From: a virus | IMG/VR virus record: IMGVR_UViG_3300043496_000117 | Span: 1 to 51,229 of that record | Length of the DNA: 51,229 nucleotides | Strand: one strand, 5' to 3' | Part shown: positions 26,580-45,431 of the stretch, piece by piece | Position numbering within the stretch: position 1 is the first letter of the stretch | Layout of the letters: the number at the start of each line of letters is the position of its first letter | Position numbers and translations under genes: made by a program | The notes under the pieces: model-generated | What the model saw: only the letters and a program-made list of their open reading frames with translations | Databases searched by the model: none | Told to the model about the DNA's origin: nothing

Positions 26580-27110
26580 TCAGTACACTCCACAATCGAC
26601 GACACCCACCTTGAACGGGCTGCCGGGAAGACCAGCGCCGACGATGGAGATGTTGTCCACCACGACCTTGCTGGTGATCTGCACCCACTGCGTGGAGTTG
26701 CCATCATTATATTTAACAAACAAGAATCCCGTATCCGATTCCCACCAAAGCCGGTTGTCGTCAGCGTCGACCGGCGGCTCGTCGGCGATCATCACGCCGG
26801 TGGCATGCAGCGCCACCCACGCCGAGAACGCCGCGCACAAATTCTGTAGCGAATCGCAATTCCACGTCCCGGTCGGATCCATGCACTCGGCGAAGCTCAG
26901 TAGCTCCGAGACGATGGCGTTGACCTGCCGCGGCTCGATCCGCGCATCGCAATCCGACGGCAGCGCCGACGCATCGCACGGCGCTATAACGAACGGCGGC
27001 AGCGGCGAGTAGGCATTCTGGACGTTCGGCGGGGCGAGCGGCACACCAGCGGCATCGCGGTAGATGACACCGCCTGCGGAAACCAGATCAGGAAAAATGG
27101 TGTTGGCCAT
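26580..27110 (-). CDS. baseplate/fibre connector protein
   Basis: 176 aa from the ATG at 27110 (TGATG overlap). Six Cys, including APCDASALPSDCD and AECMD. Its second half has DNRLWWESDTGFLFVKYNDGNSTQWVQI, closely matching a segment of fibre copies 3 and 4. Placed directly after the gp48-like gene, it fits a baseplate protein onto which fibres dock (inference). Confidence 0.65.
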   Translation of the reverse strand: MANTIFPDLVSAGGVIYRDAAGVPLAPPNVQNAYSPLPPFVIAPCDASALPSDCDARIEPRQVNAIVSELLSFAECMDPTGTWNCDSLQNLCAAFSAWVALHATGVMIADEPPVDADDNRLWWESDTGFLFVKYNDGNSTQWVQITSKVVVDNISIVGAGLPGSPFKVGVVDCGVY

Positions 27111-28051
27111 CAGCAGCACCTGACTATGTTGGTAGGACAGGCCGGTAGCATCATCGACCTCACGATACATTCAGCAGCGAGCACACCCGGCCAGACACGG
27201 TCGGGCAAACCAGCTGGCTTGTCGCAACCACGATCCCAGTACGCCGGGATCTGCGGCCGCGGCATCTGCGTTTCGCAGACGTCGCCACTGCCGCAACCTT
27301 CCAGCCAGTCTCGCTTGTTGCAGATCTCGAATTGCGGGTTGTCCGTGCACAACAGCGCGCACGGATTGTCGGAGGTGTAGACGTAGACCGGCTTCAACTC
27401 GGCACCGAGTGAATCGATCACCCAGTTCAGGCCGCACAGCGTCTTGACCACACCCATGTTGGCCCGATTGAGTGCGATAGCAACGCCGCGTTTCACCGCG
27501 CACTCCAGTTCGGGCGGATAATCCGGCGGGCAGAACATCGGACCGCAGTCGGTCCACACTTCCAGCGGCGTCAGTTCGTCGGTCAGTACCGAACGGCAGT
27601 GCTGGTTATAGCAATCTTCCCAGCGCAACCGTGACAGGTGATTGTCCAGCGTCGTCACCGCGGTCCACGGGTTGCTCTCGCGCAGCGATACCCACAAACC
27701 CCCGTGCACCACCATCCGCAGCTTCAGCACCGTGTAGATCGCATGCAGCACCAGCGACGGGCAGCGCGGATCCGTCAGCAGCGGGCACTCTTCCGGGTGC
27801 TCCGGGTTGCCTTCGAAGTAGCTGATCGCCTCCGCCTTCCAGTAGTCCCAGAGCGGTCCTGAAGGCAGCAAGTTCATAAACGCCACAAAAGTGCAGCAGA
27901 GATCGTTGCCGCACAATGGTGGCGGACAGCACCCGGTTTCGTCTAGCTCCGTGCATGGCTGACACCCATCCGAAGTCAAACAACCCGGATCACCCGGAAC
28001 AATCGGGTGAACTGGCGCGTCGATCAGGCAGTTGTCTGAGTAATCTAGCAT
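27110..28051 (-). CDS. Mu gp48-like baseplate protein, extremely Cys-rich
   Basis: 313 aa with 27 Cys (8.6 percent). Position after the J-like gene and the segment NLLPSGPLWDYW (residues 59-70) match the Mu gp48/YmfQ baseplate family, which is usually about 200 aa and has few Cys. Extra length comes from Cys-rich stretches: DGCQPCTELDETGCCPPP near the start, NPCALLCTDNPQFEIC, LEGCGSGDVC, and a final VRCC. These may bind metal or form disulfides in the assembled baseplate. It overlaps the J gene by 7 nt. Confidence 0.75.
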   Translation of the reverse strand: MLDYSDNCLIDAPVHPIVPGDPGCLTSDGCQPCTELDETGCCPPPLCGNDLCCTFVAFMNLLPSGPLWDYWKAEAISYFEGNPEHPEECPLLTDPRCPSLVLHAIYTVLKLRMVVHGGLWVSLRESNPWTAVTTLDNHLSRLRWEDCYNQHCRSVLTDELTPLEVWTDCGPMFCPPDYPPELECAVKRGVAIALNRANMGVVKTLCGLNWVIDSLGAELKPVYVYTSDNPCALLCTDNPQFEICNKRDWLEGCGSGDVCETQMPRPQIPAYWDRGCDKPAGLPDRVWPGVLAAECIVRSMMLPACPTNIVRCC

Positions 28052-29265
28052 TGCTGATAAACTGAATCCGGTCCGGTGAAGATGATGCTCTCAAGACACG
28101 GCAGCACATCGCACTCCGGCTCCAGCGCGCAGTCACTCATGTAGACCAGCGTGCGCGGATAAGGCGGCGATGCCGTCTCGTAGCCGATGACCTCAAAGCG
28201 AACCGATGCGTTGACGTTGCCGCCGACGACGTTGGCAACGATCAACTCCAGCTGCTTGGTCGTCAATGGCATTGACGGACAGATCGTCTTGAACAATTCG
28301 CGAATGTAGTTCTCGATCATCTGCTTCTGCGCCGTACTCGGACAGCCTGCGATGTCGACATAGACGTTGATCGGCAACGGTATCGGTCGGATGACGCCGC
28401 CGCACACGCCGATCTCGACCTGACCTTCGCCGTAGCCTTGATGCTGGCCGAACATCCACTCCGTGAGATCGTCGACAATATTCTGCGGCGGGATCCCGCA
28501 CGGGAAGCTGTCATCGAACAGCACGTAGAAGTACATGCCCTTGCCGCAGTTCTTGCAGCCGCAATCGCCGCAGTCCGGGTCGCAACGGCAGCACGAACCT
28601 TCGCGAACGCAAACCCGCGTGGCGCACGGGAACTCCAGAAACTTCTGCTTGATCCATGCCATCGTGGCGCGCGGCTGATACGCCAGCCGTTCAAGGTATC
28701 GCTTGCGGAATTCTTCGCAGGTCTCTTCGGCCGAACCGCCGCAGAACGCGCCGCCGCAGATTGTCACGTCGGCGTCGATGCCCGGTGCCGGTGTCGTCAG
28801 CGTGCCTTCGGTCACCGCGCCGTCGGAGTTCATCTCCGGCCCCGGTGCTAGCGCGCGGATACGCACGATGATCGAGCCGGAATCCGGCATCGTCAGCGGA
28901 ATAGTACCGACCGACACGAAGGTGCCAGCACTGGTCTGGATTTCAAACGTCGCCGGAATCGGCGACCCCGGCACGCCGGTTAGTTTGGCGTAGCCTTCAG
29001 CATGTGACGGCGGATGCGGGAACACGCCATTGCGCGCCGCCATCTTGTACAGGTTCTCGCAGCACGCCGTCTCCGGGTTGGTCTCGCGCCACATCTGATC
29101 GGCGATGGCGTAAAACTGTTCGGCCGCGGCGTAGTCGTTCGTGACGACGTACCACTCGTTCGATTCTGGATAGATCTTGCCCCCGCCCAAAACGGTGGAC
29201 GAGAACATGTTCTTCAGATGGTCGAACAGTTCCTGCGGATCTGGTCGTGGAATTGTGCATGACAT
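28045..29265 (-). CDS. baseplate J-like protein (Mu gp47-like) with Cys cluster
   Basis: 406 aa, 23 Cys. The baseplate_J layout is seen: an N-terminal helical part, the middle domain (GSIIVRIRALAPGPEMNSDG and EETCEEFRKRYLERLAYQP), and a C-terminal domain with VYVDIAGCPSTAQKQMIENYIRELF. Between them lies an unusual insertion, CVREGSCCRCDPDCGDCGC then KNCGKG, nine Cys within about 25 residues. J-like proteins form the wedge that opens when the tail contracts. The cluster could be a metal site or a disulfide-locked hairpin (inference). Confidence 0.85.
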   Translation of the reverse strand: MSCTIPRPDPQELFDHLKNMFSSTVLGGGKIYPESNEWYVVTNDYAAAEQFYAIADQMWRETNPETACCENLYKMAARNGVFPHPPSHAEGYAKLTGVPGSPIPATFEIQTSAGTFVSVGTIPLTMPDSGSIIVRIRALAPGPEMNSDGAVTEGTLTTPAPGIDADVTICGGAFCGGSAEETCEEFRKRYLERLAYQPRATMAWIKQKFLEFPCATRVCVREGSCCRCDPDCGDCGCKNCGKGMYFYVLFDDSFPCGIPPQNIVDDLTEWMFGQHQGYGEGQVEIGVCGGVIRPIPLPINVYVDIAGCPSTAQKQMIENYIRELFKTICPSMPLTTKQLELIVANVVGGNVNASVRFEVIGYETASPPYPRTLVYMSDCALEPECDVLPCLESIIFTGPDSVYQQC

Positions 29266-29271
29266 GGTGCG

Positions 29272-29871
29272 TCAGTGCCAGACCCAAGTCTCGGAGACGA
29301 AGCTGCCAGCAAGATCGATGCGACTTTGACCGGTGACCGTGTACACCGTGACTACGACAGCCACACTGTTCGACCCACGGTATGTCGCCTCAACGTCGAC
29401 AGATTCGGCAATGCCGAGAGCTATCAGTTTCCCCATGTCCGCACGAACAGCGTTGGCGATAGCCTTCACTGCATCGGCGGTGCGAATGTAGCTTTTCTCT
29501 GCCGCGTTCCACATCGTAGAGCCGATATAGAGACCGTCGTCGCGGTACGACTCCGACCAATGGCCATACGTTGCAGCTGGCGTCGGGCATCGCAGATTGG
29601 TGCGTGCCCGTGTATTCAGGATGTTGAGGATGTAGCCTTTCAGCCACTCATCATTCTTGATCGTACGGTAGCTACCAGCGTCGGGGTCCGGCGGAAAAAT
29701 CCGCGGATCGACGTATGGGTCAACCGTGATCTCCTCGTACTCCAGACCCGGAATGGCGCACTCGATGCCGCAGAGATTATAGCTGCCGCACGCCTCTACC
29801 CGAGTCGTCCAGAATATCCGGCGATGGCCGGTAGTCTGCTCAAGGCAAGGGTCGATTTTGTCAAAGTGCAT
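29272..29871 (-). CDS. Mu gp46-like baseplate protein
   Basis: 199 aa from the ATG at 29871, 11 nt inside the spike gene. The longer frame upstream is rejected. Conserved C-terminal layout of the GP46 family: WNAAEKSYIRTADAVKAIANAVRADMGKLIALGIA followed by strands VDVEATYRGSNSVAVVVTVYT. The N-terminal part has EACGSYNLCGIEC, again Cys-rich. It lies in the order spike, gp46, J expected for a Mu-like baseplate. Confidence 0.75.
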   Translation of the reverse strand: MHFDKIDPCLEQTTGHRRIFWTTRVEACGSYNLCGIECAIPGLEYEEITVDPYVDPRIFPPDPDAGSYRTIKNDEWLKGYILNILNTRARTNLRCPTPAATYGHWSESYRDDGLYIGSTMWNAAEKSYIRTADAVKAIANAVRADMGKLIALGIAESVDVEATYRGSNSVAVVVTVYTVTGQSRIDLAGSFVSETWVWH

Positions 29872-30478
29872 CGCCGAGATCCAGTTCGAACTGCGCGGGC
29901 TGACTGCCGCCCCCGCCGCCGCCACTGGATTTCTTTGCCTCCTGCTTATTGCCTTCAAAGCCGGGTGGCTTCTGACTGCCACGCACCACTTCAGGCGTCC
30001 TGATAAATTTGTTGACGACTAGCTCGCCATCGATGATCAGCTTCTTGACGCGGAAGACACCTTCCTCGCCTTTGATCTCGAATTCACCTTTTTCGCCGAC
30101 CGCGAACTTGTTCTTGGTGACGTGCGTCAGCTTGTCCGAGATATGCACCGACACTTCCGGGTCGGTCGGATGCTGAATGCCGCCCTCGTTCTCCGGCCAG
30201 CGCCGCTGCTTGTCATGCGGGATCTGGAGCACGGCCATCTTAAGCTGGGTGTCGCTCGACGATGCCAGCAGGAACACTTCAGCGTCGTGATCCTTCTTCA
30301 GCTTGAAGCTGCCGCTGCCCATGACGAGGACAGTTGCCTCCTCATCCGCGGTATCGGTGCCTTTGACTTTGATGATCGCGCCAGCGTCGTGATACTCCAG
30401 TTCGCCGTAGACATGGCGTTCCAGCCCATCCTGAACGTCGTTTGATCGAGCACCGAATGGGACAAATGGTATGCTCAT
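29861..30478 (-). CDS. baseplate spike protein (Mu gp45/gpV-like)
   Basis: 205 aa from the ATG at 30478, with GGAGAG upstream and an ATGA overlap with the hub gene. Typical gp45 sequence: LKMAVLQIPHDKQRRWPENEGGIQHPTDPEVSVHIS at about 83-118, followed by a beta-helix-like FAVGEKGEFEIKGEEGVFRVKKLIIDG. The C-terminus is a Gly/Ser-rich linker and an acidic end. Forms the trimeric membrane-piercing tip. The His-x-His seen at the tip of some spikes is not visible. Confidence 0.8.
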   Translation of the reverse strand: MSIPFVPFGARSNDVQDGLERHVYGELEYHDAGAIIKVKGTDTADEEATVLVMGSGSFKLKKDHDAEVFLLASSSDTQLKMAVLQIPHDKQRRWPENEGGIQHPTDPEVSVHISDKLTHVTKNKFAVGEKGEFEIKGEEGVFRVKKLIIDGELVVNKFIRTPEVVRGSQKPPGFEGNKQEAKKSSGGGGGGSQPAQFELDLGDAL

Positions 30479-31848
30479 GAAATCTCTCCAAACCACGGGG
30501 GAAGGGTTAACGGCGGGGTCTTACGCATCTCTTCTTGCTCTTTTTTCTGTTCGTCGGTAAGCGGCTTCGCAGCCATCTCGACCAGCGACATCAACGGCAA
30601 TTCGCTCAGCATAGGCGGAGTCCACGGGTCGGGGTACTGCCCTTCCACAATCGGTATACCGGCCTGCCCGCGACGAGCCATGCCGATCCCCATGTTGATG
30701 AGATCGAGACCGAAGCCGCCCATCCCACCTCCGCTACCTCCGCCACCGCCCGCGCCACCCGATGGTGGCGGCGACAGCGTCAGCGTGGTCTTCAATTCCT
30801 TCTCGGCGTTGACGTGGTAGGTCAACTCCGTGCATTCGAACATGTCGAAGATGCCCTCCGGCGGCACCTCGACGTAGTGCATGTTGCCGATGTCCCACGG
30901 TGCGCCGGATGACGACTGAACGTGGAATACCTCGATGGTGATCTTCTGGCTGGCGCTGTTGCGCTTGTTCATTTCGAACCGCGCACGTCGCTCAAGCTCC
31001 TTGTCGGTCGCATCGCCGTAGTGCGGAATCGTCAGTAGGTTTTTGCTTTTGACCTTCTGATTCTTGACCGTCTTGTGGGTCTTCTCCAACGCCTTCTTGC
31101 CGCGGATATCCTTCTTGGTGCGCTGGCCCTTCACCTTCACTTCCGATTTGGCCTTGTCTTCGGACTGCTCCGCCGAGAAGGTCAGAATATTCTGACCGAG
31201 AATGAGCGGCTCGCCGCCGCTGGTCATCCCGGCAACACCGTCGCAGACCACCAGCTTGCCGTCACGGCTCTCGTACATGAAGTAGCAATTCTCGGTCGCG
31301 ATCCGGTGCAGTTCATCCATCACCAGCGCGCCATCGCGGAAGCGCACCTTATCCAGCTTGATGACCTCGCCCTTCCACTCGGTCTGGATCTGCCAAGGCT
31401 CGATCAATTTATCGACCACTTCCTTGGTGGTCGGCTGCATCATGTTTGTGGTCGGATGCTGGTGCGAACTGTCGATCAGCCGCTTGGTCTTGCCGCGTGC
31501 CGACAGCTTGATGGTGTACTCGGTCGCGTTAATGGACACGCTGGATTGCGTACCGCCCGCGCCCTTGCCTTCTTTCTGATTGCTCTCGTCCGCGCCTTTC
31601 TTGCCTTTTTTGGTGCCGCTGCCTTCGCGCTTGTCAATGCTGCCGCAGAACGCCAGCTGACCACCGATGTAGACTGTAATCTCGGCACCGCACTTTGCTG
31701 CCTGTACCATCGGGCCAGACGACATCGCACCGGCGAAAATAGTGCAGCTGAGCGAGCCGGTCATCTCATCCTTGGATCTTTGAAGCGTCATCTCAGTCCA
31801 AGTATCGAGTGCCGTGCCACCAACACAGATGACAACCGGCGACATCAT
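30475..31848 (-). CDS. tail hub protein (Mu gp44/late control D-like)
   Basis: 457 aa. N-terminal gpD-like domain (VVICVGGTALDTWTEMTLQRSKDEMTG) with a Lys/Gly-rich insert at about 75-100. Then SARGKTKRLIDSSH and VDKLIEPWQIQTEW, followed by the typical MDELHRIATENCYFMYESRDGKLVV. The C-terminus has a long Gly-rich stretch and an extra helical and Pro-rich tail beyond the family core. Forms the hub on which spike and tube sit. It overlaps both neighbours by 4 nt. Confidence 0.8.
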   Translation of the reverse strand: MMSPVVICVGGTALDTWTEMTLQRSKDEMTGSLSCTIFAGAMSSGPMVQAAKCGAEITVYIGGQLAFCGSIDKREGSGTKKGKKGADESNQKEGKGAGGTQSSVSINATEYTIKLSARGKTKRLIDSSHQHPTTNMMQPTTKEVVDKLIEPWQIQTEWKGEVIKLDKVRFRDGALVMDELHRIATENCYFMYESRDGKLVVCDGVAGMTSGGEPLILGQNILTFSAEQSEDKAKSEVKVKGQRTKKDIRGKKALEKTHKTVKNQKVKSKNLLTIPHYGDATDKELERRARFEMNKRNSASQKITIEVFHVQSSSGAPWDIGNMHYVEVPPEGIFDMFECTELTYHVNAEKELKTTLTLSPPPSGGAGGGGGSGGGMGGFGLDLINMGIGMARRGQAGIPIVEGQYPDPWTPPMLSELPLMSLVEMAAKPLTDEQKKEQEEMRKTPPLTLPPWFGEIS

Positions 31849-33038
31849 GTCGGCGCAACCCCTGATACAATCATGCCCATGCGTCCGTTAGCGTCGATGA
31901 TGTTGCGTTCCTCAAGCTCACGGTGCCGCTTGGCATCTTTGTAGATCACGTAGGCTGCGACCAGCGGGTGCACCCCGCCGGAGAAATTGACCAGTATCTG
32001 TCCGGGCAGACGGTACGACAGGTCGTACATCATCTTGCTGAACTCGACGGCGTACTTCTCGATCTCGATGAACAGCGCGTTGTCGCACTGGGTGTAGGCA
32101 GCGTTGGCTTCGTCTTCCAGCACAGCCATCACAGTCGACCGTGCAGCCAGTGCCTCTTCGACGGTCGGATACTTCTGCCCCATCGCCGCTTCGGCCATGC
32201 CGACGCCAGCGAGAAGCCTGAACCTGCTGACGACAGCCTCGTCGCTGACGACTGCCGGGCCGGGCGGCAGGCCCGGTGTCGGATGCGCCGCGTTGACCAG
32301 CTTGCGCATGATACCGAATTTGTTTTTCGGGTCGACGACGTTGCGCTTGATTAGCTCAAAGCCCTGCACCAGCGCGTCGTCGACGTTCGGCGCTGACAGC
32401 GCCAGTCCGTCATCCTTGGCGACCTCCCACATACGGAAGATCGCACGCCAGTCATTGGCGGGAGAACCGGAGGCGACAACGTGTTCGGCGACCTGCGCAA
32501 CAGACCAGATCAAACCTTGCGCCTTATTGACGACCTGATCCTTCCACGGCAGCGGCACTATCGTTGGTGTGTAGTCCCGATAGAAAGACGTCTGTGACGC
32601 CGCAAACAATCCAGTGGAGATGATCCCAAAGATCGATCCAAGGATCCCGCTGAAGCCGATGTTCGCCTCGACGAACTCCAACTCAGCAGTCGTTTTGCCC
32701 GCTGACTCCTCCAGCGAATCCTTAACCTTAACAGACCGGCACGCGACCATGACGGAGCCGCGTGTAGGATGAACAAGAATGCCCGGCCCCGGAGATTCGC
32801 AAGCCGCGAACAACGCTTGGCTATCCCAGACATGGTCATCTTCCTTGAACACAGCAGTAAGAGCGTAGACGCGGATCTTGCGACCAAGATCCGCGTACGC
32901 TGTGTGCTCACCGAAGGGAAACTCCCCTTCGGCACCCCGACGTCCGCCTTGGATATCGGCTTCGGTACAATAGAAACCTACCCCCTTGAACGAGGCAGGT
33001 ACTACGTCCTTGTCGATAGCGCAGACGGAACGCGACAT
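31845..33038 (-). CDS. DNA circularisation N-terminal domain protein (Mu gp43-like)
   Basis: 397 aa. The N-terminal 120 residues follow the DNA_circ_N family: FKGVGFYC, GGRRGAEGEFPFGEHTAYADLGRK, ALFAACESPGPGILVHPTRGSV, then GKTTAELEFVEA. In Mu and related myophages this protein sits between tape measure and hub and is a tail component, despite its historical name. The rest is helical and specific to this phage. It begins 1 nt before the stop of the small basic gene upstream. Confidence 0.8.
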   Translation of the reverse strand: MSRSVCAIDKDVVPASFKGVGFYCTEADIQGGRRGAEGEFPFGEHTAYADLGRKIRVYALTAVFKEDDHVWDSQALFAACESPGPGILVHPTRGSVMVACRSVKVKDSLEESAGKTTAELEFVEANIGFSGILGSIFGIISTGLFAASQTSFYRDYTPTIVPLPWKDQVVNKAQGLIWSVAQVAEHVVASGSPANDWRAIFRMWEVAKDDGLALSAPNVDDALVQGFELIKRNVVDPKNKFGIMRKLVNAAHPTPGLPPGPAVVSDEAVVSRFRLLAGVGMAEAAMGQKYPTVEEALAARSTVMAVLEDEANAAYTQCDNALFIEIEKYAVEFSKMMYDLSYRLPGQILVNFSGGVHPLVAAYVIYKDAKRHRELEERNIIDANGRMGMIVSGVAPT

Positions 33039-33170
33039 TTAGCGACCGCGACCGCTCTTCGCCTTGGCTTTGACAGCCGGACGCGCTTGCTTCTGCGGCT
33101 TGCTCACCTTGCGCTCAGCCCGATTATTGCTGGCGATGGTTTTCTTCGACGACCCTTTTTTAAGTGGCAT
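33039..33170 (-). CDS. 43-aa basic protein
   Basis: ATG preceded by GGAGAG. Starts MPLKKGSSKKTIASNNRAE and continues with Lys/Arg/Ala to the end. The first 20 residues follow a well-known pattern of small basic phage proteins (MPLKKGSSKKTI...), found near structural genes in many phages. Likely nucleic-acid binding or virion-associated. It sits between tape measure and circularisation genes. Confidence 0.65.
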   Translation of the reverse strand: MPLKKGSSKKTIASNNRAERKVSKPQKQARPAVKAKAKSGRGR

Positions 33171-36869: not shown

Positions 36870-36872
36870 GAA

Positions 36873-37319
36873 CTAGGCCGCCGTTGCGAAGGTCGGCTGG
36901 ACGACCTGCTCTGTGGACTCAAGCGTGCCGACCGGCAGCAGTTCATCGATCTCCCTGAACGAGAGCGTCAGCGTCACCTCATGGGTGTCTGACTTATCGT
37001 CCCCGGTACCGGTGCCCTTGACCGCCGAATAGACCAGCCCGTTGTAGTACTCGACCTGTAGCGCCACGTCACTACAGCCCTGATACATACTGAGCGGGAT
37101 CCTGAGATCGCGGATCACTTTGATCTCGACCTCCGGGTTAGATGGCTTTCGCGTGACGTAGCCCTGCGGCAACGGCTCGTTGTTGAAAGCGCACAGCCGC
37201 CACGTCGGCAGATCCTCACCCGACAGCTTGTGCGAGATCGGGCCGTAGATGGCACCGGTATCGCAGTCGAGGAACGTCATGAGGATGTTCTTGACGCCTA
37301 CCTGATTTTCGCAAGTCAT
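36873..37319 (-). CDS. tail tube protein
   Basis: 148 aa. Strand-rich, starting MTCENQVGVKNILMTFLDCDTG, with the conserved-looking RKPSNPEVEIKVIRDLRIPL and a final THEVTLTLSFREIDELLP. The family layout (beta-hairpin, helix, beta-hairpin), size and place between sheath and chaperone fit a Mu/P2-like tube protein. It has four Cys, in line with the other tail proteins. A GAAAGGAA ribosome site precedes it. Confidence 0.75.
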   Translation of the reverse strand: MTCENQVGVKNILMTFLDCDTGAIYGPISHKLSGEDLPTWRLCAFNNEPLPQGYVTRKPSNPEVEIKVIRDLRIPLSMYQGCSDVALQVEYYNGLVYSAVKGTGTGDDKSDTHEVTLTLSFREIDELLPVGTLESTEQVVQPTFATAA

Positions 37320-37353: not shown

Positions 37354-37375
37354 ATGCTCAGCAATTGCTGAGCAT
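37354..37375. repeat. 22-bp perfect palindrome over the sheath stop codon
   Basis: Two 11-bp arms, ATGCTCAGCAA and its exact inverse, with no spacer. In the sheath mRNA it can fold as a 9-bp stem with an AATT loop that contains the stop codon. No T-run follows, so it is not a normal terminator. It may affect the ratio of sheath to tube protein or protect the mRNA. Confidence 0.7.
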
Positions 37376-38875
37376 CGCAGGCTGCGCGTTGATGGTGATG
37401 GTGCTGATGCGCACCGGCGGACGATAGGTGAAGTCGATCCAGAGCTTACCCGGAATGCCTTGGCACTTCGGAGCAACCTCGAAATCGGTCTTCAGCTGAA
37501 TGTCCTGATCGATGTTCTCGAATTCCGAGAACAGGTACCCGACCTGAGATTTCGCCCAAGCCCGGAACTGACCAAGAATCATGCGCGGGTTGGTGCCTCG
37601 CACACCGGCAGGCACCGTGGTGTTCTTGGTGAACAGGCCAAGCCCCACCACTTGACCAAGCGCAATCGCCGCCTGATCGGCAGTCGCAGCAGCGAGCCGC
37701 CGCGAGTTGACGTTCCACCACGTCGCGTTCAAACGACCGTTCTCGTCGTAACGGTTGTTGGTGGAGTCGTTGACGACCATCGGCTGGGTCATCGCGCCGG
37801 TGCCGCCCTGAAGCGGAACGGTGACGACGAAGCCCGTGGCCTGAAGCAGCTGCTGCTCTTCGAACGTGAAGCACTGGAAGCAGGCTTCCGGCTGACGCAG
37901 GCAGGCGAGGATGCCGAAGTTCGGACCCTGCACTGACATCTCCGGGTGATCGATGGTGATGCAGCAGGAGTGCGCCGCATAGGCCGCCGCCTTCAGCCAG
38001 CCGACAACCGGGTCGGACCAGCAATGGGCGATACGGGAGACCTCTGCCGAGTTGGTGTCGGCGGCGAGGATCTGACCGAACGAGCCGTAGTTGTAGGTGT
38101 AGCCATGACCGAAGCACTGCGGCTTGTCGCACGACCACGCGGACGCGATGTAGGCGATCATGTTGTCCTGCCAGTCATCGTTGGCATAGAGCATGCCGAT
38201 GCAGCAGTAGCAGCACTCGCCGAGAATGGCGTCGTAGTTCGGCAGAGCATAAGCGGTATGCGAGCCGATTACAGTCTGCGCCACCGTCATCTCGATCCCG
38301 GCCGGAGCGTAATCACGACGCTGATGCCAGTTGTAGATGAAGTTCGTGGCGTTGCCGACAGTGCCCTTGTTCTTGTACGTCAGCGTGATGGCACCGCCAG
38401 CTGCGACGGCATCCATCGGGAGACCGGCTTCGCTGTTGAGCGACAGCGCCACGTTGGTCGCGATCTCATCCGCCGTGTCACCTTCGTGCACGCGCGTCGA
38501 AGTGTTGTAGCGGCCATCGACCATGAACAGGTCGACGCGGCCGTCGCTCTCTGCGGTGCCGGTGAAGGTCAGCACGTACGCCGCAGCCTGCTCAGCACCA
38601 ACTTCAGCGTCCTTCCACGGCAGAGCGTAAAACTCCATCGCGTGGTTGGGGCAGCACAGGAACGCGGTCTTGAGACCTTCGCCGATGATGCTGCCTTCTC
38701 CGAACAGGAGATCGGCATCACGCAGCGACGGGATCTTGAGCAGGGCACCGCTCTCGGCAGTGCCCGTGTCGAGCATCTGACCTTCGATCAGAATGCGGCA
38801 CTTGCTCTTGTAAGCGTTCAACGAAGGGTCGAAGCAGATGCGGATCGCGCCGGACCGCAGGCTGTCGATTGACAT
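37358..38875 (-). CDS. contractile tail sheath protein, Cys-rich
   Basis: 505 aa, 18 Cys. Mu gpL-like layout: N-terminal handshake strands, a variable middle, and the conserved C-terminal half with FGILACLRQPEACFQCFTF, VVNDSTNNRYDENGRLN, ADQAAIALGQVVGLGLFTKN and the final strand set ending RPPVRISTITINAQPAMLSNC. The Cys sit in notable groups: FLCCPN, GECCYCCIG, SCDKPQCFG, HSCCITI. The sheath contracts to drive the tube through the envelope. So many paired Cys in subunits that must slide suggests buried metal or reduced thiols rather than static disulfides (inference). Confidence 0.85.
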   Translation of the reverse strand: MSIDSLRSGAIRICFDPSLNAYKSKCRILIEGQMLDTGTAESGALLKIPSLRDADLLFGEGSIIGEGLKTAFLCCPNHAMEFYALPWKDAEVGAEQAAAYVLTFTGTAESDGRVDLFMVDGRYNTSTRVHEGDTADEIATNVALSLNSEAGLPMDAVAAGGAITLTYKNKGTVGNATNFIYNWHQRRDYAPAGIEMTVAQTVIGSHTAYALPNYDAILGECCYCCIGMLYANDDWQDNMIAYIASAWSCDKPQCFGHGYTYNYGSFGQILAADTNSAEVSRIAHCWSDPVVGWLKAAAYAAHSCCITIDHPEMSVQGPNFGILACLRQPEACFQCFTFEEQQLLQATGFVVTVPLQGGTGAMTQPMVVNDSTNNRYDENGRLNATWWNVNSRRLAAATADQAAIALGQVVGLGLFTKNTTVPAGVRGTNPRMILGQFRAWAKSQVGYLFSEFENIDQDIQLKTDFEVAPKCQGIPGKLWIDFTYRPPVRISTITINAQPAMLSNC

Positions 38876-38914
38876 GGGGTCGCTCCTTTTCGCCGGGTCG
38901 GCGGGTTAGTGGTT

Positions 38915-39214
38915 TCAGTTATCGCGAGGCTTGGGGGCACCAGTACCGGGAGCTTGCTCGCCGGTCGGCTGGATGGTGTGACGGCCGCCGCCGGGCACAG
39001 GTGCCGTCGGGCCTTTCTCTACCGTCTTGGATTTGCTTTGCGACGGCGGGGCTTTCGGATCCAGCCCGCCTTCGACTTCGATGTCTTCCCAGTGTTCGGC
39101 AAGCCGCCGAATGTACGGATTGTCGGTCACAGGGACGAACTTGTCCTCTGGAATCATCTTGCCTTCGAAGAAGGCTGCCCGTCCGGGCTTTGTCTTCACA
39201 TAGATCATGGCCAT
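38915..39214 (-). CDS. DUF2635-like small tail protein
   Basis: 99 aa from the ATG at 39214, preceded by AAAGGAGG. An upstream ATG at 39262 lacks such a site. It starts MAMIYVKTKPGRAAFFEGKM, then VPVTDNPYIRRLAEHWEDIEVEGG, matching the DUF2635 pattern of a small protein encoded just before the sheath gene in Mu-like phages. The remaining half is a Pro/Gly/Lys-rich disordered tail longer than usual. Confidence 0.7.
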   Translation of the reverse strand: MAMIYVKTKPGRAAFFEGKMIPEDKFVPVTDNPYIRRLAEHWEDIEVEGGLDPKAPPSQSKSKTVEKGPTAPVPGGGRHTIQPTGEQAPGTGAPKPRDN

Positions 39215-39252
39215 GTCCGGCCTCCTTTGCGGCGGGGTTGAAAAATGAGTCT

Positions 39253-39828
39253 TCACTGGCATGGGTCTTCGTCTTCCAGACAGTCAGGATCGCAGCAGTC
39301 CGACAACGGAGCACACATGTTGAACTGAATGCCCTTGATGATCTGGACATCCTCGTCCATCACCCGCGGCGCGACCCAACGGAAGTACGCCATGAAGGTG
39401 AACGTCAGCGTCACGGCCAGAGGCTCAGCCTCGATGGTCATGCCACGATAGGAAATCATCTCACAGCCCGGTGGCTCCCAGCGACCCATCTTCCACAGCA
39501 GCGTGTCGCGGATCTGCTCGTAATCGTAGTAGCTCCAGAACGGCGTCTCGGTGCCGTTGGCCTTTTTATAGCGCGCTGGCTCAAGCCAGAAATCGACGAT
39601 GAACGTATCGGTGATCTCGAAATTATCGAGGTTGCCCTGCTCGTTCGGATCCGCGGTCGAGCGTATGAACGCGACCATCACCAACGGCAGTGTCGGCACA
39701 TTATCTTTAGTGATCGACACTTCGGACACGGCCAAAGCACGGCCATTGGTCTCAGGAAACCACTGCGCTAGCTGTTCAGCTAGCGCAGGTAGAAACTTCT
39801 GCTTTGCGGGGGATACCCGGGCATCCAT
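39253..39828 (-). CDS. tail terminator/completion-like protein
   Basis: 191 aa from the ATG at 39828, just after the previous stop (TAAGATG). The upstream frame is rejected. Layout of a helix, then strands and a helix, with FIVDFWLEPARYKK and MTIEAEPLAVTLTFTFMAYFRW, fits the position of the Mu gp37-like tail terminator. The last 22 residues hold six Cys (MCAPLSDCCDPDC, then EDPC), a tail of the same kind as in several other virion proteins here. A 26-bp palindrome is embedded near the 5' end. Confidence 0.55.
   Translation of the reverse strand: MDARVSPAKQKFLPALAEQLAQWFPETNGRALAVSEVSITKDNVPTLPLVMVAFIRSTADPNEQGNLDNFEITDTFIVDFWLEPARYKKANGTETPFWSYYDYEQIRDTLLWKMGRWEPPGCEMISYRGMTIEAEPLAVTLTFTFMAYFRWVAPRVMDEDVQIIKGIQFNMCAPLSDCCDPDCLEDEDPCQ
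39763..39788. repeat. 26-bp near-perfect palindrome inside a coding region
   Basis: Arms CTGCGCTAGCTG and CAGCTAGCGCAG are exact inverses separated by TT. It lies within codons 14-22 of the tail-terminator-like gene (LPALAEQLAQ) and may fold in the mRNA as an 11-12-bp stem near the start of translation. Function unknown. It also contains two GCTAGC sites. Confidence 0.7.
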
Positions 39829-39829
39829 C

Positions 39830-40033
39830 TTACGCAGATTCTTCCTTATTGTCGTCCTGATCAAGCGCGAGCTTGATGTCGTCGACTGTGCGCTGATGCT
39901 TCGCACTCAGCTGCTGAGCGATCTGCTCGTTGTTGAAACCTTGCGCCTTCAACGCCTTTGCAGCGGTGCGCAGTTGCTCCTGCTCCTGCTGCTTTTTCTC
40001 TTCCTGCTGCTGCTCTTGATTTTCGTCACTCAT
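39830..40033 (-). CDS. small Gln/Glu-rich helical protein
   Basis: 67 aa from the ATG at 40033 with GGGAG upstream. The longer frame is rejected. The first 25 residues are a Gln/Glu/Lys run (NQEQQQEEKKQQEQEQ). Residues 28-55 form a compact helical unit, AAKALKAQGFNNEQIAQQLSAKHQRT, that looks like a helix-turn-helix of the small ribosome- or DNA-binding type. In the head-tail junction region its role is unclear. Confidence 0.6.
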   Translation of the reverse strand: MSDENQEQQQEEKKQQEQEQLRTAAKALKAQGFNNEQIAQQLSAKHQRTVDDIKLALDQDDNKEESA

Positions 40034-40050
40034 TGTAGCGTCTCCCTTTG

Positions 40051-40419
40051 TTAACCTCTTGTCCACTCAACCCACTTGCCAAGACGGCTGTGGCTCATGC
40101 CCTCTTTCAGCGCGTTGTCACTCATTTTCCGGCGGGCCATCTTGCTGGTGCCGTTTCTCAGGAAGCCTGAGTATGGCATGCCGGTGCCAATAGTCACAGA
40201 ATCGGCCGTGGTCTCGTGACGGATCGAACCCTTCAAGCCACCGGTCCTGCTGTTCGGCCACGCCCCCGGCGCACTGGGCGGACGCCAGCGCCCCATCCCG
40301 CTCCGAAATGCGTCGGTCCCCGAGACGCCGATATCGTTCAGCCACCGGTGGATCTCCTCCTGCTTCTTGCGGGCATGGAAGCGACCCCACGGCGAGAACT
40401 CGATGGTGAACCCGCTCAT
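40051..40419 (-). CDS. HK97 gp10/Mu gpG-like head-tail connector
   Basis: 122 aa. Conserved pattern: PNSRTGGLKGSIRHETTADSVTIGTGMPYSGFLRNGTSKMARR, typical of the HK97 gp10 and virion-morphogenesis families (RTG-x-L, then IGT-x2-PY, GT-x2-M-x-R). It has the basic end expected. It completes the head-tail interface and follows the adaptor gene, which it overlaps by 4 nt. Confidence 0.8.
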   Translation of the reverse strand: MSGFTIEFSPWGRFHARKKQEEIHRWLNDIGVSGTDAFRSGMGRWRPPSAPGAWPNSRTGGLKGSIRHETTADSVTIGTGMPYSGFLRNGTSKMARRKMSDNALKEGMSHSRLGKWVEWTRG

Positions 40420-40844
40420 AAATCAACTCGCGTCGGCTGCGGCGCGAACGCGCCCTGCGGCGGGTTGACCATGTCTGAGATCTCGATCAGGCGCGTCGTC
40501 AGCACCAGAAACTTGTCCGGCTCCGAGACGCCAAGCACCTTGTACCAGCGCGGCGCGCTCTTGAGGAATTCCTCGTAGACGTAGGCCGTATTGGTGACGT
40601 TATCGACCAGACCATTCCTGATCGTGATGGCGTGGGTCGCCTTGGCGACCGGGTCCATGATCGTGTAGCCCTGCTGCCCGATGAAGAACGGCAGGCCGTA
40701 ATGCGACTTGATTCGCGCCCAGCACCAGATCACTTCGGTGCGCACCAACTCCATCGTCTGGCCGTCGAGCACGACGTCCTTCTGGGTGCACAGCGCGATA
40801 CGGTGCTTCATCTCGTTGATTTTTGGTGCGCCGGGATCTTTCAC
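40416..40844 (-). CDS. head-tail adaptor (head closure) protein
   Basis: 142 aa, GTG start. Strand-rich, with MKHRIALCTQKDVVLDGQTMELVRTEVIWCWARI, the usual start of the phage head-tail joining family, in which a beta-barrel closes the connector. The end carries FLVLTTRLIEISD. Small spacing of 3 nt from the previous stop. Confidence 0.7.
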   Translation of the reverse strand: MKDPGAPKINEMKHRIALCTQKDVVLDGQTMELVRTEVIWCWARIKSHYGLPFFIGQQGYTIMDPVAKATHAITIRNGLVDNVTNTAYVYEEFLKSAPRWYKVLGVSEPDKFLVLTTRLIEISDMVNPPQGAFAPQPTRVDL

Positions 40845-40847
40845 TGG

Positions 40848-41558
40848 CTACCAAGCCTCGTTGTCCAGAATGCGCCACGTCTCGATGGCTCCCGAGATCA
40901 TGGCGATGTTGTTGCTGCCCTGAAGACCGGCGAGACCGGCGCGGGTCTCGATTCGGCTGCGTTGGGTCAGCAATTCGTCGCCGGGATGCTCAATTGCCCA
41001 TGTCATAAACTGTAACATTCCGAGAACGACCGTGGTCGGCACGTCTTCGGCCGATTTGTAGCCCGCCCGGTAGGTCGCCAGCATGCCGCCGTTGACCGCC
41101 CACGGCTTGGCGCAGGGATCACAACAGTTGGTCAGGTCGATCATGTCCTTCTTGATCGGCACCTTGATCTTGCGGCTGCCGGGGACGACCTGAAACGTGG
41201 CGTTGTCGACGATGTGGGTACCGCCGTAGAGATAAACGTAGCCATCGGCGACCGGGTACTGGAGCCGGTGCGTGTAGTAGGCGACGTAGGGCCGGAGCCG
41301 GTTCGGGGCCGGGCCTTCGATAGGCTCCGTCACCGTGCGCTGCACGCGCAGCAACAGACCCGTGTAGTGCTCCGCGGAGTCCAGCGCCGCACTGCGGTAG
41401 AGCCGCAGCTGCTCATCCGTGACCGACGGAATATCATCGATCTTGGCATGGCTGCGGATCATGTCGATCCCCAACCGCACGTCCCAGTCGAGCGGCTTCT
41501 CCTCGCCGATGGGGATCGGCGAGACGTCAAGCGGCTTATTGGGAACCTGTCTCAGCAC
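40848..41558 (-). CDS. gp6-like head-tail connector
   Basis: 236 aa. The helical N-terminal domain (LGIDMIRSHAKIDDIPSVTDEQLRLYRSAALDSAEHYTG) is typical of HK97 gp6-like connectors. A strand-rich middle has YVYLYGGTHIVDNATF and the Cys group TNCCDPCAKPW, and ends with TRAGLAGLQGSNNIAMIS. It is longer than classical gp6 (about 110 aa), with the insert in the middle. It forms the ring under the portal. Confidence 0.65.
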   Translation of the reverse strand: MLRQVPNKPLDVSPIPIGEEKPLDWDVRLGIDMIRSHAKIDDIPSVTDEQLRLYRSAALDSAEHYTGLLLRVQRTVTEPIEGPAPNRLRPYVAYYTHRLQYPVADGYVYLYGGTHIVDNATFQVVPGSRKIKVPIKKDMIDLTNCCDPCAKPWAVNGGMLATYRAGYKSAEDVPTTVVLGMLQFMTWAIEHPGDELLTQRSRIETRAGLAGLQGSNNIAMISGAIETWRILDNEAW

Positions 41559-42250
41559 GCCGTGATCCCGATATCGAAGCAGTCAGTCCGGCTGTAACAG
41601 GTGCAGGCGCAGTCCATTGCGGTCTGCAAAACCGTGAGACGCCAGACCTCGCACTCGTCGGCCGCCGGGGAGACCGAGATCGGGAAGCTGACGTTGAAGT
41701 AGCGGTTGTCGACCGTAGCCGGGCCGACGCTGATGTGAGGCGTGGCGACGATGTTGTCGGTATCGATGCCGATCCCGATCATCACCTCGAAAACGGTGCT
41801 GCTCTGGCCATCGCTGGCGGAGGCATAGAAACGATCCTCACCCTTGTAGTTGGCCATCGGCATGTAGGAGAACGCGCCGTCCTCCTGCAAATCCAGCTTG
41901 CCATGCTTGGCACCGTACAGCGGCAGCGCCTTGAACTTCAGCGGCGTCTGCTCCGGGTCGCGGATCATGTTGGTGAGGGTGTTCTCCAGCAACGTGTTGA
42001 CGTCGACCGAGAACTTCGGATCGGAAACGATCTGCGGCGGCACGTTGTTGCCGACCGGCGTCGGACAAGTATCCATCAACTCGATCTGGAACTGGGGCGC
42101 GCAATGCAGCTGGCCAATCGGCACCGCCCACGTCGCGTAGCCGACCGAGACCTTGGTGACCGTGCCGGGTTGAAGGGTGAGCTTCTGGCAGCAGCACTTC
42201 ATGCACTGGGCATCAACCGCAGTGTAATCCTCTACCGTAAAATGCCTCAT
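41552..42250 (-). CDS. Cys-rich protein with Ig/cadherin-like domain
   Basis: 232 aa from the ATG at 42250 (GGAG upstream); the earlier frame is rejected. 12 Cys: AQCMKCCCQK near the start and MDCACTCYSRTDC at the end. The middle (about 85-155) reads as a bacterial Ig/cadherin-like repeat: EQTPLKFKALPLYGAKHGK, LDLQEDGAFSYMPMANYKG, EDRFYASASDGQSS, then a strand. Such domains decorate capsids or tails and bind carbohydrates weakly. Placed between head and connector genes, it is probably a head or collar decoration. Confidence 0.65.
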   Translation of the reverse strand: MRHFTVEDYTAVDAQCMKCCCQKLTLQPGTVTKVSVGYATWAVPIGQLHCAPQFQIELMDTCPTPVGNNVPPQIVSDPKFSVDVNTLLENTLTNMIRDPEQTPLKFKALPLYGAKHGKLDLQEDGAFSYMPMANYKGEDRFYASASDGQSSTVFEVMIGIGIDTDNIVATPHISVGPATVDNRYFNVSFPISVSPAADECEVWRLTVLQTAMDCACTCYSRTDCFDIGITAC

Positions 42251-42273
42251 GGCTGCGCTCCGTTGTTGGAAGT

Positions 42274-42294
42274 CCGGGGGCACAAGGCCCCCGG
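42274..42294 (-). other. GC hairpin between head and connector genes
   Basis: CCGGGGGC (42274-42281) and GCCCCCGG (42287-42294) form a perfect 8-bp stem with a 5-nt loop in the leader of the Cys-rich Ig-like gene. There is no U-tract on the minus strand, so processing, mRNA stability or translation control is likelier than termination. Confidence 0.6.
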
Positions 42295-42311
42295 TATTTC
42301 AGTTCACAGCG

Positions 42312-42410
42312 TTACGGAGTAACCGGTGCCGGGCACTGGAAGCACGGCGGCGAAGCAAGCGGAATCGCTGAATTCGGCTTGCAGGCATTGCTACAACGAA
42401 CTTGAATCAT
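42312..42410 (-). CDS. 32-aa Cys-motif microprotein
   Basis: ATG with AAAAGGAG at good spacing. Sequence pattern RCSNACKP then PPCFQCPAP: Cys-x3-Cys and, about 15 residues on, Cys-x2-Cys, enough to bind one zinc. It overlaps the preceding gene by 20 nt. Small free zinc-ribbon-like proteins are known in phages, and this may also supply metal or thiols to the Cys-rich virion (speculative). Confidence 0.5.
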   Translation of the reverse strand: MIQVRCSNACKPNSAIPLASPPCFQCPAPVTP

Positions 42411-42696
42411 CGGTGGTCTCCTTTTCCCGTTTACGGGGCTTGGCTACCGGAGGCGGATCCGGCTCTTTCGCCGGGGCAGTATACGCCTCGACCTCCGCTT
42501 CCGTCATCGGCCGGGCGTAGCCATGGTTCACTAAATAACCGGCCGCATCGGGCGGCAGGCCAGCGAACATGGTGTCGCTAGGCCACTCGATACGGACAGG
42601 GTCAGCGAAGTAAGCCGGACGGTAATCGAACCACTGCGTGTCCGTTCCACGTCCGGTCGCAACCTGCATCACAACAAGTGTTTCGGTGTCTGCCAC
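42391..42696 (-). CDS. small hypothetical protein
   Basis: 101 aa, ATG 28 nt inside the previous gene. N-terminal strands, a Trp/Tyr-rich middle, then GLPPDAAGYLVNHGYARPMTEAEVEAY, a turn-helix unit often seen in small head-module proteins, and a basic/acidic tail. Possibly a head-completion accessory. No firm family. Confidence 0.6.
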   Translation of the reverse strand: MADTETLVVMQVATGRGTDTQWFDYRPAYFADPVRIEWPSDTMFAGLPPDAAGYLVNHGYARPMTEAEVEAYTAPAKEPDPPPVAKPRKREKETTDDSSSL

Positions 42697-43076
42697 GGTA
42701 TAAACTTTCGCTTGGCCCAGTCGATCCAGCCCAGATCAGGATTGATCGTGCGGCTCAGCTTCACCTTGGCCAGCGGATCGGTCTTGTCGTCGACCTCCTG
42801 CATGACACTGATGAAGCCGTCGATATCGGCCTTGAATTTCAATTGACGATCCGACTGCTTGCCGACCAGCCGTATCGACAGCGGCGACAGCATGGTCGGT
42901 TGACCATTGGCTACGATGATGTCAGCGACGTGAGGCACGTAGGGGCTGAACTTGGCACCGTTCTCGGACGCAAACACGAACAACCGGCCCAGCTTGCCGG
43001 TTGGAGGAAGCGTACCCCGAATGACAACTTCGTCCCCGGGGGACACCCGTAGCATATTGCCGACCGGCACCCTCAT
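42669..43076 (-). CDS. hypothetical head-module protein
   Basis: 135 aa from the ATG at 43076 (ATGA overlap with the second decoration gene). The longer frame is rejected. Strand-rich with VSPGDEVVIRGTLPPTGKLGRLFVFAS and IRLVGKQSDRQLKFKADIDG. A beta-sandwich is likely. No named family. Its tight coupling to the decoration genes suggests a capsid surface or minor capsid role. Confidence 0.6.
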   Translation of the reverse strand: MRVPVGNMLRVSPGDEVVIRGTLPPTGKLGRLFVFASENGAKFSPYVPHVADIIVANGQPTMLSPLSIRLVGKQSDRQLKFKADIDGFISVMQEVDDKTDPLAKVKLSRTINPDLGWIDWAKRKFIPWQTPKHLL

Positions 43077-43483
43077 CGACGGCCCGACAGGGTGACGACG
43101 ATCTCGATCTTGCCGGTGTCGCCACTGACCGGGAACACCTTGACGAAGGCGTCCGGCTTGCACGGCAACGTGGCGGTACAGATGCCACCCTTCTTGACGC
43201 CTGCCGGAACGGTGACAAACGACTTGGTCGCAGGCACAGCACCCCACGACGCCGAACAGGTGAAGACCTCTTCGATATCGTGGAAAATACCCTCGACACA
43301 TTGATCGGCATCACTCGGCGGCGCAGCACGGATCTCGAAAACCGCATCGGCAAGGATGTCGCTGTCAGCCTTGAAGGTGAAACCGAATCCGATGTGACGA
43401 CGGATATCGATAGCCTTGTTGACGCCAGCAGACGCCCACGTGACTTGCCCCTCGTTCTGGTAGGCGACGTTGATCATGTTCAT
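43073..43483 (-). CDS. capsid decoration protein, paralogue 2
   Basis: 136 aa from the ATG at 43483 (GGGGAAG upstream). About half the positions match the preceding gene: DIRRHIGFGFTF, ADAVFEIRAAPPSDADQCVEG, EEVFTCSASWG, PAGVKKGGICTATLPCKPDAFVKV. The four Cys are at the same places in both copies. A strand-rich cement or decoration protein downstream of the capsid gene is the simplest reading. The conserved Cys may cross-link copies on the capsid (inference). Confidence 0.7.
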   Translation of the reverse strand: MNMINVAYQNEGQVTWASAGVNKAIDIRRHIGFGFTFKADSDILADAVFEIRAAPPSDADQCVEGIFHDIEEVFTCSASWGAVPATKSFVTVPAGVKKGGICTATLPCKPDAFVKVFPVSGDTGKIEIVVTLSGRR

Positions 43484-43507
43484 GGTGTCTTCCCCTGATG
43501 GAGCAAG

Positions 43508-43535
43508 CCGTGGCTGCCCTTGCGGACAGCCACGG
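43508..43535 (-). other. 12-bp hairpin with GCAA loop between decoration genes
   Basis: On the minus strand CCGTGGCTGTCC, loop GCAA (a GNRA tetraloop), GGGCAGCCACGG: twelve pairs including one U-G. No U-tract follows. It sits in the 64-nt gap between the paralogous decoration genes and likely stabilises or separates their messages. Confidence 0.7.
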
Positions 43536-43547
43536 TAGCTATTCCCG

Positions 43548-43946
43548 TTACCGCGGACCGGACAGGATCGCGACCGCCTGAACATTGGCGGCACCAACCC
43601 CGACCAGCTGAACAAAGGCATCGGGTTTGCACGGCAACGCAGCCGAACAGATCGAGCCTTTCTTTGCTCCGGCGGGCAGGACGATGGTTGCCTGCGGCAG
43701 CGGCTGGACGCCCCAGCCTGCTGTACAGGTCAGCACTTCTTCCACCGGCACGAAAGTGCCGGGGACGCAAGGGTCAGCATCGCTGGCCGGAGCCGACTGC
43801 ACGTTGAACACAGCGTCCGCCGCCAAGTCAGCCATGACATGGAACGTGAAGCTGTAGTTGTTGTGCTTGCGGATATCGATTGGCTGGGCAGCAGTGCCAG
43901 ACCAAGCGATGATTCCCTGATGCTGGGATGCACCGTTGAGGTTCAT
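43548..43946 (-). CDS. capsid decoration protein, paralogue 1
   Basis: 132 aa, ATG with AGGAG upstream, directly after the capsid gene. Motifs DIRKHNNYSFTF, ADAVFNVQSAPASDADPCVPG, EEVLTCTAGWG and PAGAKKGSICSAALPCKPDAFVQL are shared with the following gene. Four conserved Cys. It may be one of two head-decoration proteins occupying similar sites, or form a hetero-oligomer with its partner (inference). Confidence 0.7.
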   Translation of the reverse strand: MNLNGASQHQGIIAWSGTAAQPIDIRKHNNYSFTFHVMADLAADAVFNVQSAPASDADPCVPGTFVPVEEVLTCTAGWGVQPLPQATIVLPAGAKKGSICSAALPCKPDAFVQLVGVGAANVQAVAILSGPR

Positions 43947-43982
43947 GGTTCAATACTCCTGATGAGGATGTTGCTGTGAAGC

Positions 43983-45431
43983 TTACGGGCCGACCGAAAG
44001 GATCGACGCCGCCGGGCAGCACGCAACGAAACCGCCATCTTCGGCACCGAACGAGTAGGCAACACACCACGCGGTGCTCTTGCCTTCCCACTGCTCGATC
44101 CAGAGCGGGCGCTTGTTGACGACATAGTACGCCTGTTTCCAAGCGCCTGTCGCCGCGATGAACGACCCGGTGACGAACGGCTTGGCAGGAGAACCGTCCA
44201 GCGTCAGGTTGTTGGTCGGATCGGGCAGGCAGTTGGAGATGCGGATGTTCTCACGAACGTCCGACGGGCCGTAGGTCATCAGGCCGTCACCGAACAGGAA
44301 GCGCCCGTTGGTGTCGACCAGTGCGGCCAGATACGCGAAGGTGTTCTGATGCATGACCGTGGTGACCGGACCGTATTCCACCGGCACTGCGCCGTGGAAC
44401 AGGCGGAAGTCGACATGGGTCAACCCGGTCGACGGCGTGGACCGCTTGGTGAAGCAGTCGTTGGTCAGCCAGCCGAGAGGCTCGTTGACGCCGTCACCGA
44501 CCATCGTGGCGCGGTTACGGTTGATGCGGTAGGACCGCGCTGCCGCCTGATACATGAAGGCGAGCAGGTCGTAGTTGGCTTCGGCGAGAACCTTGCGGTT
44601 GAAGCAGAACACGCCACGGAAGTCCGAGACCTGTCCGTTCTTGAACTCGATGTTGCCGGGCGGGCCGTACTCGGCATCGCACTTGGCATCGCAATCGTAC
44701 TGGCCGATGGCACCGTAGTCGGTGACATGCGGGTACATGAACTGCGACTTGCCGACCGAGACCGAGTTGTAGAGATCGAGAAGCTCAGCGCACTCGACAA
44801 TACAATTCATCTCGATGCCCAGCATCTCCGGGCTGAACAAGGCTGAGTCGAGGCTGGAAGCTTCGAACGCCTTGCGCTCATGCTCGTCGAGGCTGCGCAC
44901 GATCTTCGCCCGCGGCTCGATGCCAACCTGCATCATCTTGCGCACCGCCGACCGATAGTCCTTGGCGACGACAAGATTGTCCATGTCCGGCTTGAAGTCC
45001 CACTCCAGTCCGCCCTTGAACAGGAAGGCCCGGCGCTGAAGTTCGACGGCCGCTGCGCGGTCGCTCTCTTCCAGATCCTTGCCGCCCTTGATGATGGGTT
45101 GATCCATCTCCTTCTTGACCTGATTGAGCGCCTGCTCAAGCATCTGAATCTGCTTGATCTGCTCAGCGTAGTCGGCGGCGTGCTTGAGCACGGTCGCCTT
45201 CAACTCTTCGGTGGTCGCCTTGACGCCGCCGAAGTGGTTGTTCAGTTCGGTGTACTGCACCTCACTGTCCTTCTTGGCCTTCTCCAAGGCGGTGACGATG
45301 TTACTCATCTCCGTGGTCAGCGGCGCGAGCAGCGCCTCTGCTGTTTTCGTATCGGCTGGTGCTTCCTTGGTGATGTACGAGCCGCGAAACACGCCCGACT
45401 TGAGCGCGTTCAGTCTATCTTTGGAGTTCAT
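43983..45431 (-). CDS. major capsid protein, HK97 fold with N-terminal scaffold
   Basis: 482 aa. Residues 1-115 form a long coiled coil (KTAEALLAPLTTEMSNIVTALEKAKKDSE and on) that acts as a built-in scaffold removed by the protease encoded next door. The rest follows the HK97 major capsid layout, with KAFEASSLDSALFSPEMLG, a strand-rich E-loop region, the FCFNRKVLAEANYDLLAFMYQAAARSYR spine helix and VGDGVNEPLGWLTN. It has 10 Cys, including YDCDAKCDAEY and FVACCPA near the C-terminus, unusual for this family. A capsid reinforced by metal or disulfides is possible (inference). Confidence 0.85.
   Translation of the reverse strand: MNSKDRLNALKSGVFRGSYITKEAPADTKTAEALLAPLTTEMSNIVTALEKAKKDSEVQYTELNNHFGGVKATTEELKATVLKHAADYAEQIKQIQMLEQALNQVKKEMDQPIIKGGKDLEESDRAAAVELQRRAFLFKGGLEWDFKPDMDNLVVAKDYRSAVRKMMQVGIEPRAKIVRSLDEHERKAFEASSLDSALFSPEMLGIEMNCIVECAELLDLYNSVSVGKSQFMYPHVTDYGAIGQYDCDAKCDAEYGPPGNIEFKNGQVSDFRGVFCFNRKVLAEANYDLLAFMYQAAARSYRINRNRATMVGDGVNEPLGWLTNDCFTKRSTPSTGLTHVDFRLFHGAVPVEYGPVTTVMHQNTFAYLAALVDTNGRFLFGDGLMTYGPSDVRENIRISNCLPDPTNNLTLDGSPAKPFVTGSFIAATGAWKQAYYVVNKRPLWIEQWEGKSTAWCVAYSFGAEDGGFVACCPAASILSVGP

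Follow-up and report, generated by a model that had tools for sequence, protein, structure and literature searches.

The cysteine clusters in the particle proteins encoded by this phage are most probably, at a probability of about 0.9, the anchor points of a particle-wide disulfide network of the kind described for phage Milano (MK637516, Schmittlotzvirus). The sequence studied, referred to here as the window, is one 51,229-bp IMG/VR virus record. We computed orthology, gene order, the conservation of bonded sites, the co-variation of bonding partners and the absence of a sheath lock; that the sites form disulfides, that these give robustness and that contraction needs reduction was taken from the Milano papers, and it is by analogy that we infer the formation of the same bonds in the window phage.

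In the solved Milano virion, inter-chain disulfides run across the capsid, neck, collar, tube, sheath, baseplate and fibres, and some have been verified by mass spectrometry (PMC10491603, PMC10811340). DTT abolishes the resistance of the Milano particle to sonication and heat, and contraction by guanidine requires DTT (PMC10491603, PMC10811340). The structural proteins of Milano contain 2.1–2.4% Cys (PMC10811340, PMC10491603), and a similar disulfide network has been solved for the capsid of phage 7-7-1 (PMC12796354). The Cys-cluster phenomenon itself has been described before, in Milano and 7-7-1. The present analysis adds a divergent variant in which the sheath lock is missing, a far broader distribution, a gene encoding the capsid linker LP2 and a set of testable new Cys pairs, chiefly sheath 176-286.

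Cysteine accounted for 2.42% of residues in the particle genes (138/5703) and 0.85% in the other genes (69/8104; Fisher p = 2e-13). The earlier note on this DNA, made from the sequence alone, had reported 27 Cys in the 313 residues of a gp48-like protein, 23 in 406 of a J-like protein, 18 in 505 of the sheath and 10 in 482 of the capsid, and our recount agreed exactly. Its 12 Cys in an Ig-like protein were also confirmed, the protein being 232 aa long from the ATG chosen there and 243 aa from an upstream GTG. The same note held that few Cys are normal in Mu-type relatives, and this was borne out by the syntenic structural genes of the Mu-like phages PG1, phiAP1 and phiNP (0.54, 0.69 and 0.54% Cys, respectively). 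The enrichment is selective. No Cys was found in the 963 aa tape measure protein (33181–36072; Milano gp24, phmmer 4e-18), whose relatives also have none, in the central spike (29861–30496; gp27, phmmer 7e-30) or in the product of 38915–39262.

From the terminase to the short fibre, nearly every gene is matched by a syntenic Milano orthologue, in the same order, and the particle genes of phage Yong-L2-223 are also syntenic and orthologous. All particle genes described here lie on the minus strand. The major capsid protein (43983–45431; Milano gp9, 49% identity) has Cys at 10/10 Milano Cys positions, and these are nearly invariant across 70 relatives. The minor capsid (decoration) protein mCP (43548–43946; gp10) keeps 4/4 Milano Cys, each missing from at most one of 64 relatives. 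A second mCP copy, also with four Cys, lies in tandem at 43073–43483 (phmmer 3e-13 to Milano gp10 and 1e-33 to Yong-L2-223), where the start was placed at an internal Met and the longest ORF extends to 43621; Milano has a single copy. The Ig-like protein is the collar protein (41552–42283; gp13, phmmer 8e-30), in which 7/7 Milano Cys are kept and the decorating domain matches Pfam Big_9. What had been called a connector is neck 1 (40848–41558; gp14), which carries a CCDPC motif in its head-joining loop and in which C149 corresponds to Milano C117, the partner of capsid C252. Neck 2 (40416–40844; gp15, phmmer 2e-20) follows.

In the tail, the tube terminator (39253–39906; gp18, phmmer 6e-19) has a Cys-rich C-terminus. 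Six Cys in its last 22 residues had been claimed; the total of six is correct, but five fall in the last 20 residues (CAPLSDCCDPDCLEDEDPCQ) and the sixth is C148. The sheath (37358–38875; gp20) has 46% identity to its Milano orthologue over 505 aa. The tube protein (36873–37319; gp21) keeps 4/4 Milano Cys, at positions 3, 19, 43 and 82, and these were found in 54–55 of 55 relatives. The baseplate comprises the centrepiece (31845–33038; gp25; five Cys, with C6 and C318 kept), the hub (30475–31848; gp26, phmmer 4e-115) and three wedge proteins. Wedge 1 (29272–29982; gp28, Pfam GP46-like, phmmer 3e-26) has five Cys, with Milano C3, C22, C32 and C74 kept. Wedge 2, the J-like protein (28045–29265; gp29, Pfam Baseplate_J 2e-15), keeps 16/17 Milano Cys. 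Wedge 3, the gp48-like protein (27110–28051), had no Pfam or PHROG match and was identified by direct comparison with Milano gp30 (phmmer 3e-52). The N-terminal part of the short tail fibre (26580–27170; gp31) has six Cys and keeps Milano C29, C38 and C67.

Between the collar and minor capsid genes we located a gene that was absent from the ORF list, encoding the 32 aa capsid linking protein LP2 (42312–42410; Milano gp128) with AGGAG upstream. Its Cys at 6, 10, 23 and 26 are in a register identical to that of Milano LP2 and are kept in nearly all relatives, and an LP2-like ORF was found in 50 of the 52 rows carrying both the mCP and collar genes. It should be noted that the gene is shorter than usual ORF cut-offs. 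Milano LP1 was not found in the window.

The recurrence of CCDPxC-type clusters was confirmed, as SDCCDPDC in the terminator, TNCCDPC in neck 1 and SCCRCDPDC in wedge 2, and these are the proteins that had been taken as unrelated. The neck 1 and wedge 2 clusters lie within loops that make inter-protein disulfides in Milano, with the capsid in the case of neck 1, and in that of wedge 2 with the short fibre or an adjacent copy of wedge 2; the terminator cluster is at the C-terminus.

Across the aligned particle proteins, 79 of 100 Milano Cys are Cys in the window, a retention above that of every other residue (Trp 62%, Gly 56%; 40% overall), and in the terminase, portal and protease 2/9 Milano Cys are kept. 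Cys is present at both sites of 31 of the 39 bonds from the Milano papers that could be mapped; the three Milano LP2 bonds, added separately, also have Cys at both sites, giving 34/42. In the eight remaining bonds, the contraction lock and two bonds of the short fibre among them, one exact site or both have no Cys; some of these bonds look relocated and not lost. The Cys at terminator site 178 (equivalent to Milano C156, which bonds tube C3) has been lost from five sequences, that of the window among them, and in the smaller alignment C148 is gained in exactly those five, taking its place in the window's subclade; in the same alignment, the terminators of two relatives (L022 and L024) have lost C178 and gained C180. 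In the larger alignment two further terminators (L055 and L146) are without C178, and L146 has C148. At the wedge 1 site of Milano Cys29, the window has a Cys one residue earlier (C71). Milano wedge 3 C206 aligns to T236 in the first alignment and to C231 in the larger one, so that this bond is possibly conserved after all. In the L024 sheath, of which the reading frame is broken, C304 is lost and a Cys stands at 302, as if one partner of the pair had shifted.

Of the properties proposed in the earlier note, disulfide cross-linking is the one that the data strongly favour, since the solved Milano orthologues form bonds, the bonded Cys are kept here and bonded pairs co-vary. As grounds against its reading, that note had named close homologues of equal Cys content with known simple roles; close homologues of equal Cys content do exist, and their known role is cross-linking. 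We propose that the thiols would be oxidized after assembly and release, presumably outside the cell. In the head, bonds would link the capsid to the decoration proteins and LP2, and to the neck; in the tail, they would link the collar to the sheath, tube ring to tube ring and sheath subunit to sheath subunit. In the baseplate, the wedges would be joined among themselves and also with the sheath, the centrepiece and the short fibre, making the particle mechanically robust. For the tail to contract, baseplate bonds, for instance centrepiece C318 to wedge 2 C3, would first need to open.

Redox-triggered contraction, as suggested in the earlier note, is half supported: Milano needs a reducing agent, but its sheath bond Cys47-Cys182 is missing here, and redox triggering is only a candidate role in the window phage. 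In Milano, C47-C182 is the only sheath bond broken on contraction and two others survive (Milano papers). The lock positions are Lys47 and Arg186 in the window sheath, and only two of 59 distinct sheaths have the C47-C182 pair, those of Milano and of a contig taken as 7-7-1 (L123/L165). The four Cys of the surviving bonds (C14-C249 and C221-C332 in window numbering) are kept in 59/59 sheaths. A general claim of a family-wide disulfide lock against contraction would, given this distribution, be wrong.

These observations lead us to consider a sub-case that is compatible with the disulfide network, in which the bonds are purely structural and have no redox part in contraction. The missing lock and the two retained bonds fit it, but the centrepiece to wedge 2 bond and most wedge bonds are kept in the window, and the Milano authors state that these must open (Milano papers); we regard the purely structural version as possible, though somewhat doubtful. 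Any redox gate of the window phage would more likely lie at the baseplate than along the sheath. Within the disulfide network reading, we tentatively speculate that a bolted design is old and widespread and its redox latch still evolving: the majority of phages would lack the lock, with any gate at the baseplate, the lock would have been added in the Agrobacterium phages and the 176-286 pair repeatedly gained and lost elsewhere. Sheath 176-286 spans the outer and body domains, as C47-C182 does. Six window sheath Cys (74, 224, 225, 285, 304 and 335) are off the Milano sites, of which C74 may be a shifted Milano C73. Structures of Milano gp20 exist (8fop and others); an AlphaFold sheath model built with 17 relatives had a mean pLDDT of 50, too poor for placing the extra Cys.

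Partner co-variation was studied across about 80 related contig groups, mostly metagenomic, gathered by profile scans of IMG/VR. Milano bonds with variable partners tend to vary jointly, including between proteins. The partners of sheath 47-182 are gained or lost together, and joint losses were seen for tube 43-82 (L169), wedge 2 282 with wedge 3 206 (L120 and L171), and both capsid 223 with mCP 105 and centrepiece 318 with wedge 2 3 (L157). Several of these co-losses come from a single divergent genome or a pair of them (L157, L169 and L120/L171) in which other, unrelated Cys are lost too, and are illustrative. Placing the changes on a tree gave the stronger cases, which are new pairs, with all changes shared for sheath 176-286 (5/5), sheath 225-304 (4/4) and collar 61-229 (3/3), none of which was equalled in 20,000 random placements. 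The two sheath pairs (p below 5e-5, 435 pairs) narrowly survive correction for multiple testing; two wedge 2 pairs (p 0.002 and 0.004) do not. Pairs with a single change, such as sheath 224/285/335, were not taken as evidence, since one split between clades accounts for them. Where partner Cys are lost jointly, this offers a sequence-only predictor of inter-protein cross-links, including pairs absent from structures so far.

Co-variation also bears on whether the clusters bind metal, either zinc or iron-sulfur, and so stabilize the proteins singly. CxxC-like spacings and Cys-dense loops, such as SCCRCDPDCGDCGCKNC in wedge 2 and ECCYCC in the sheath, would suit such sites. However, the same columns form disulfides in the solved Milano and 7-7-1 particles, and the joint loss of partners in different proteins is unexpected for a local metal site; metal binding, which the earlier note had also raised, is left without support and we consider it very improbable.

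A further reading sees the trait as an adaptation to Agrobacterium and its surroundings. The Milano papers suggest this and relate the trait to the Agrobacterium clade, and Milano, 7-7-1 and OLIVR4 all infect this genus (PMC10491603). However, relatives with equal or higher Cys occur in Bradyrhizobium genomes, among phages recorded on Synechococcus and in the about 80 mostly metagenomic contig groups. One of these is a prophage-like region of Bradyrhizobium lablabi CCBAU 23086 (L028, NZ_LLYB01000081), which lies in a 303-kb contig and has the same particle genes and a sheath of 21 Cys, 77% identical to that of the window; it has the extra pair 176/286, which the window sheath lacks. The contig also encodes a tyrosine integrase, some 8 kb ahead of the point where the matching phage genes begin, so this region is likely a prophage. 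The family was carried by 2 of 266 Bradyrhizobium genomes, and sampling the order and the phylum, at about 400 genomes apiece, revealed no further members. Among other Bradyrhizobium prophage sheaths, 7/8 have 0–1 Cys, and the eighth (L037), a longer frame with a partial match, has 10. As Mu-like prophages of Bradyrhizobium are mostly without Cys, the trait follows phage lineage. It is not tied to Agrobacterium, and we rejected the host-driven explanation on the strength of these relatives and of the Cys-poor prophages of the same genus, giving it slightly less weight even than metal binding. A composition or mutation bias lifting Cys everywhere could draw on the ease with which Cys codons arise (the TGY expectation from base composition, 3.1%, exceeds the observed Cys fraction), but it is refuted by the within-genome contrast with the 0.85% of the other genes, by the particle proteins with none, by Cys being the most conserved particle residue and by the 0–1 Cys of most other Bradyrhizobium prophage sheaths, and its probability is close to nil.

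What has been published so far comes from two close relatives, both Agrobacterium phages, and connects the network with that host and with a contraction-blocking sheath bond. In the window and the about 80 contig groups the network is kept and the sheath lock is not, which sets the needs of a robust particle apart from a possible contraction gate and provides a ready comparison for redox control. The window resembles Milano in gene order, in 34/42 mapped bonds, in the Cys-poor tape measure and spike and in the LP2 micro-protein, but differs in the lock, in its only 46% identical sheath, in its two mCP copies and in S74-type fibres. Judged from proteins only, the 46% sheath and 49% capsid identity make membership of the genus Schmittlotzvirus unlikely. 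The particle of phage 7-7-1 (NC_019519) is likewise rich in Cys, and its disulfide network has been solved (PMC12796354), but its sheath, 44.5% identical, has the C47/C182 lock, as read from L123/L165. Yong-L2-223 and Ssp-JY38, both of Synechococcus, have sheaths 58% and capsids 61% identical to those of the window. Yong-L2-223 carries the same extra sheath Cys, has K/R at the lock sites and keeps 34/39 Milano bonds, compared to 31/39 in the window. We found no publication on either phage.

Searches of all window reading frames of at least 30 aa gave no match at E 0.1 to the Milano tail spike gp124 or garland gp125/gp127. Several fibre genes at 18874–24941 (minus strand) share a similar N-terminal stretch (MIDFPA.P..GQEFDAVGFTYVWNGQGW), and the adjoining fibre gene at 24943–26298 has a Peptidase_S74 chaperone domain; these fibres may replace the Milano spike and garland. 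A fibre-like protein at 14359–15648 (minus strand) contains long collagen-like GPQGPQ repeats. No tRNA or Rfam elements were found in the window. The product of 50215–50790 (minus strand) is NusG-like (PF02357, E 4e-5) and is possibly a phage antiterminator. Finally, the capsid pairing is listed as C302-C455 and C186-C456 for Milano, and apparently as the equivalents of C302-C456 and C186-C455 in the 7-7-1 paper (PMC12796354); in the L157 capsid C302 and C456 are lost jointly, which fits the 7-7-1 pairing.
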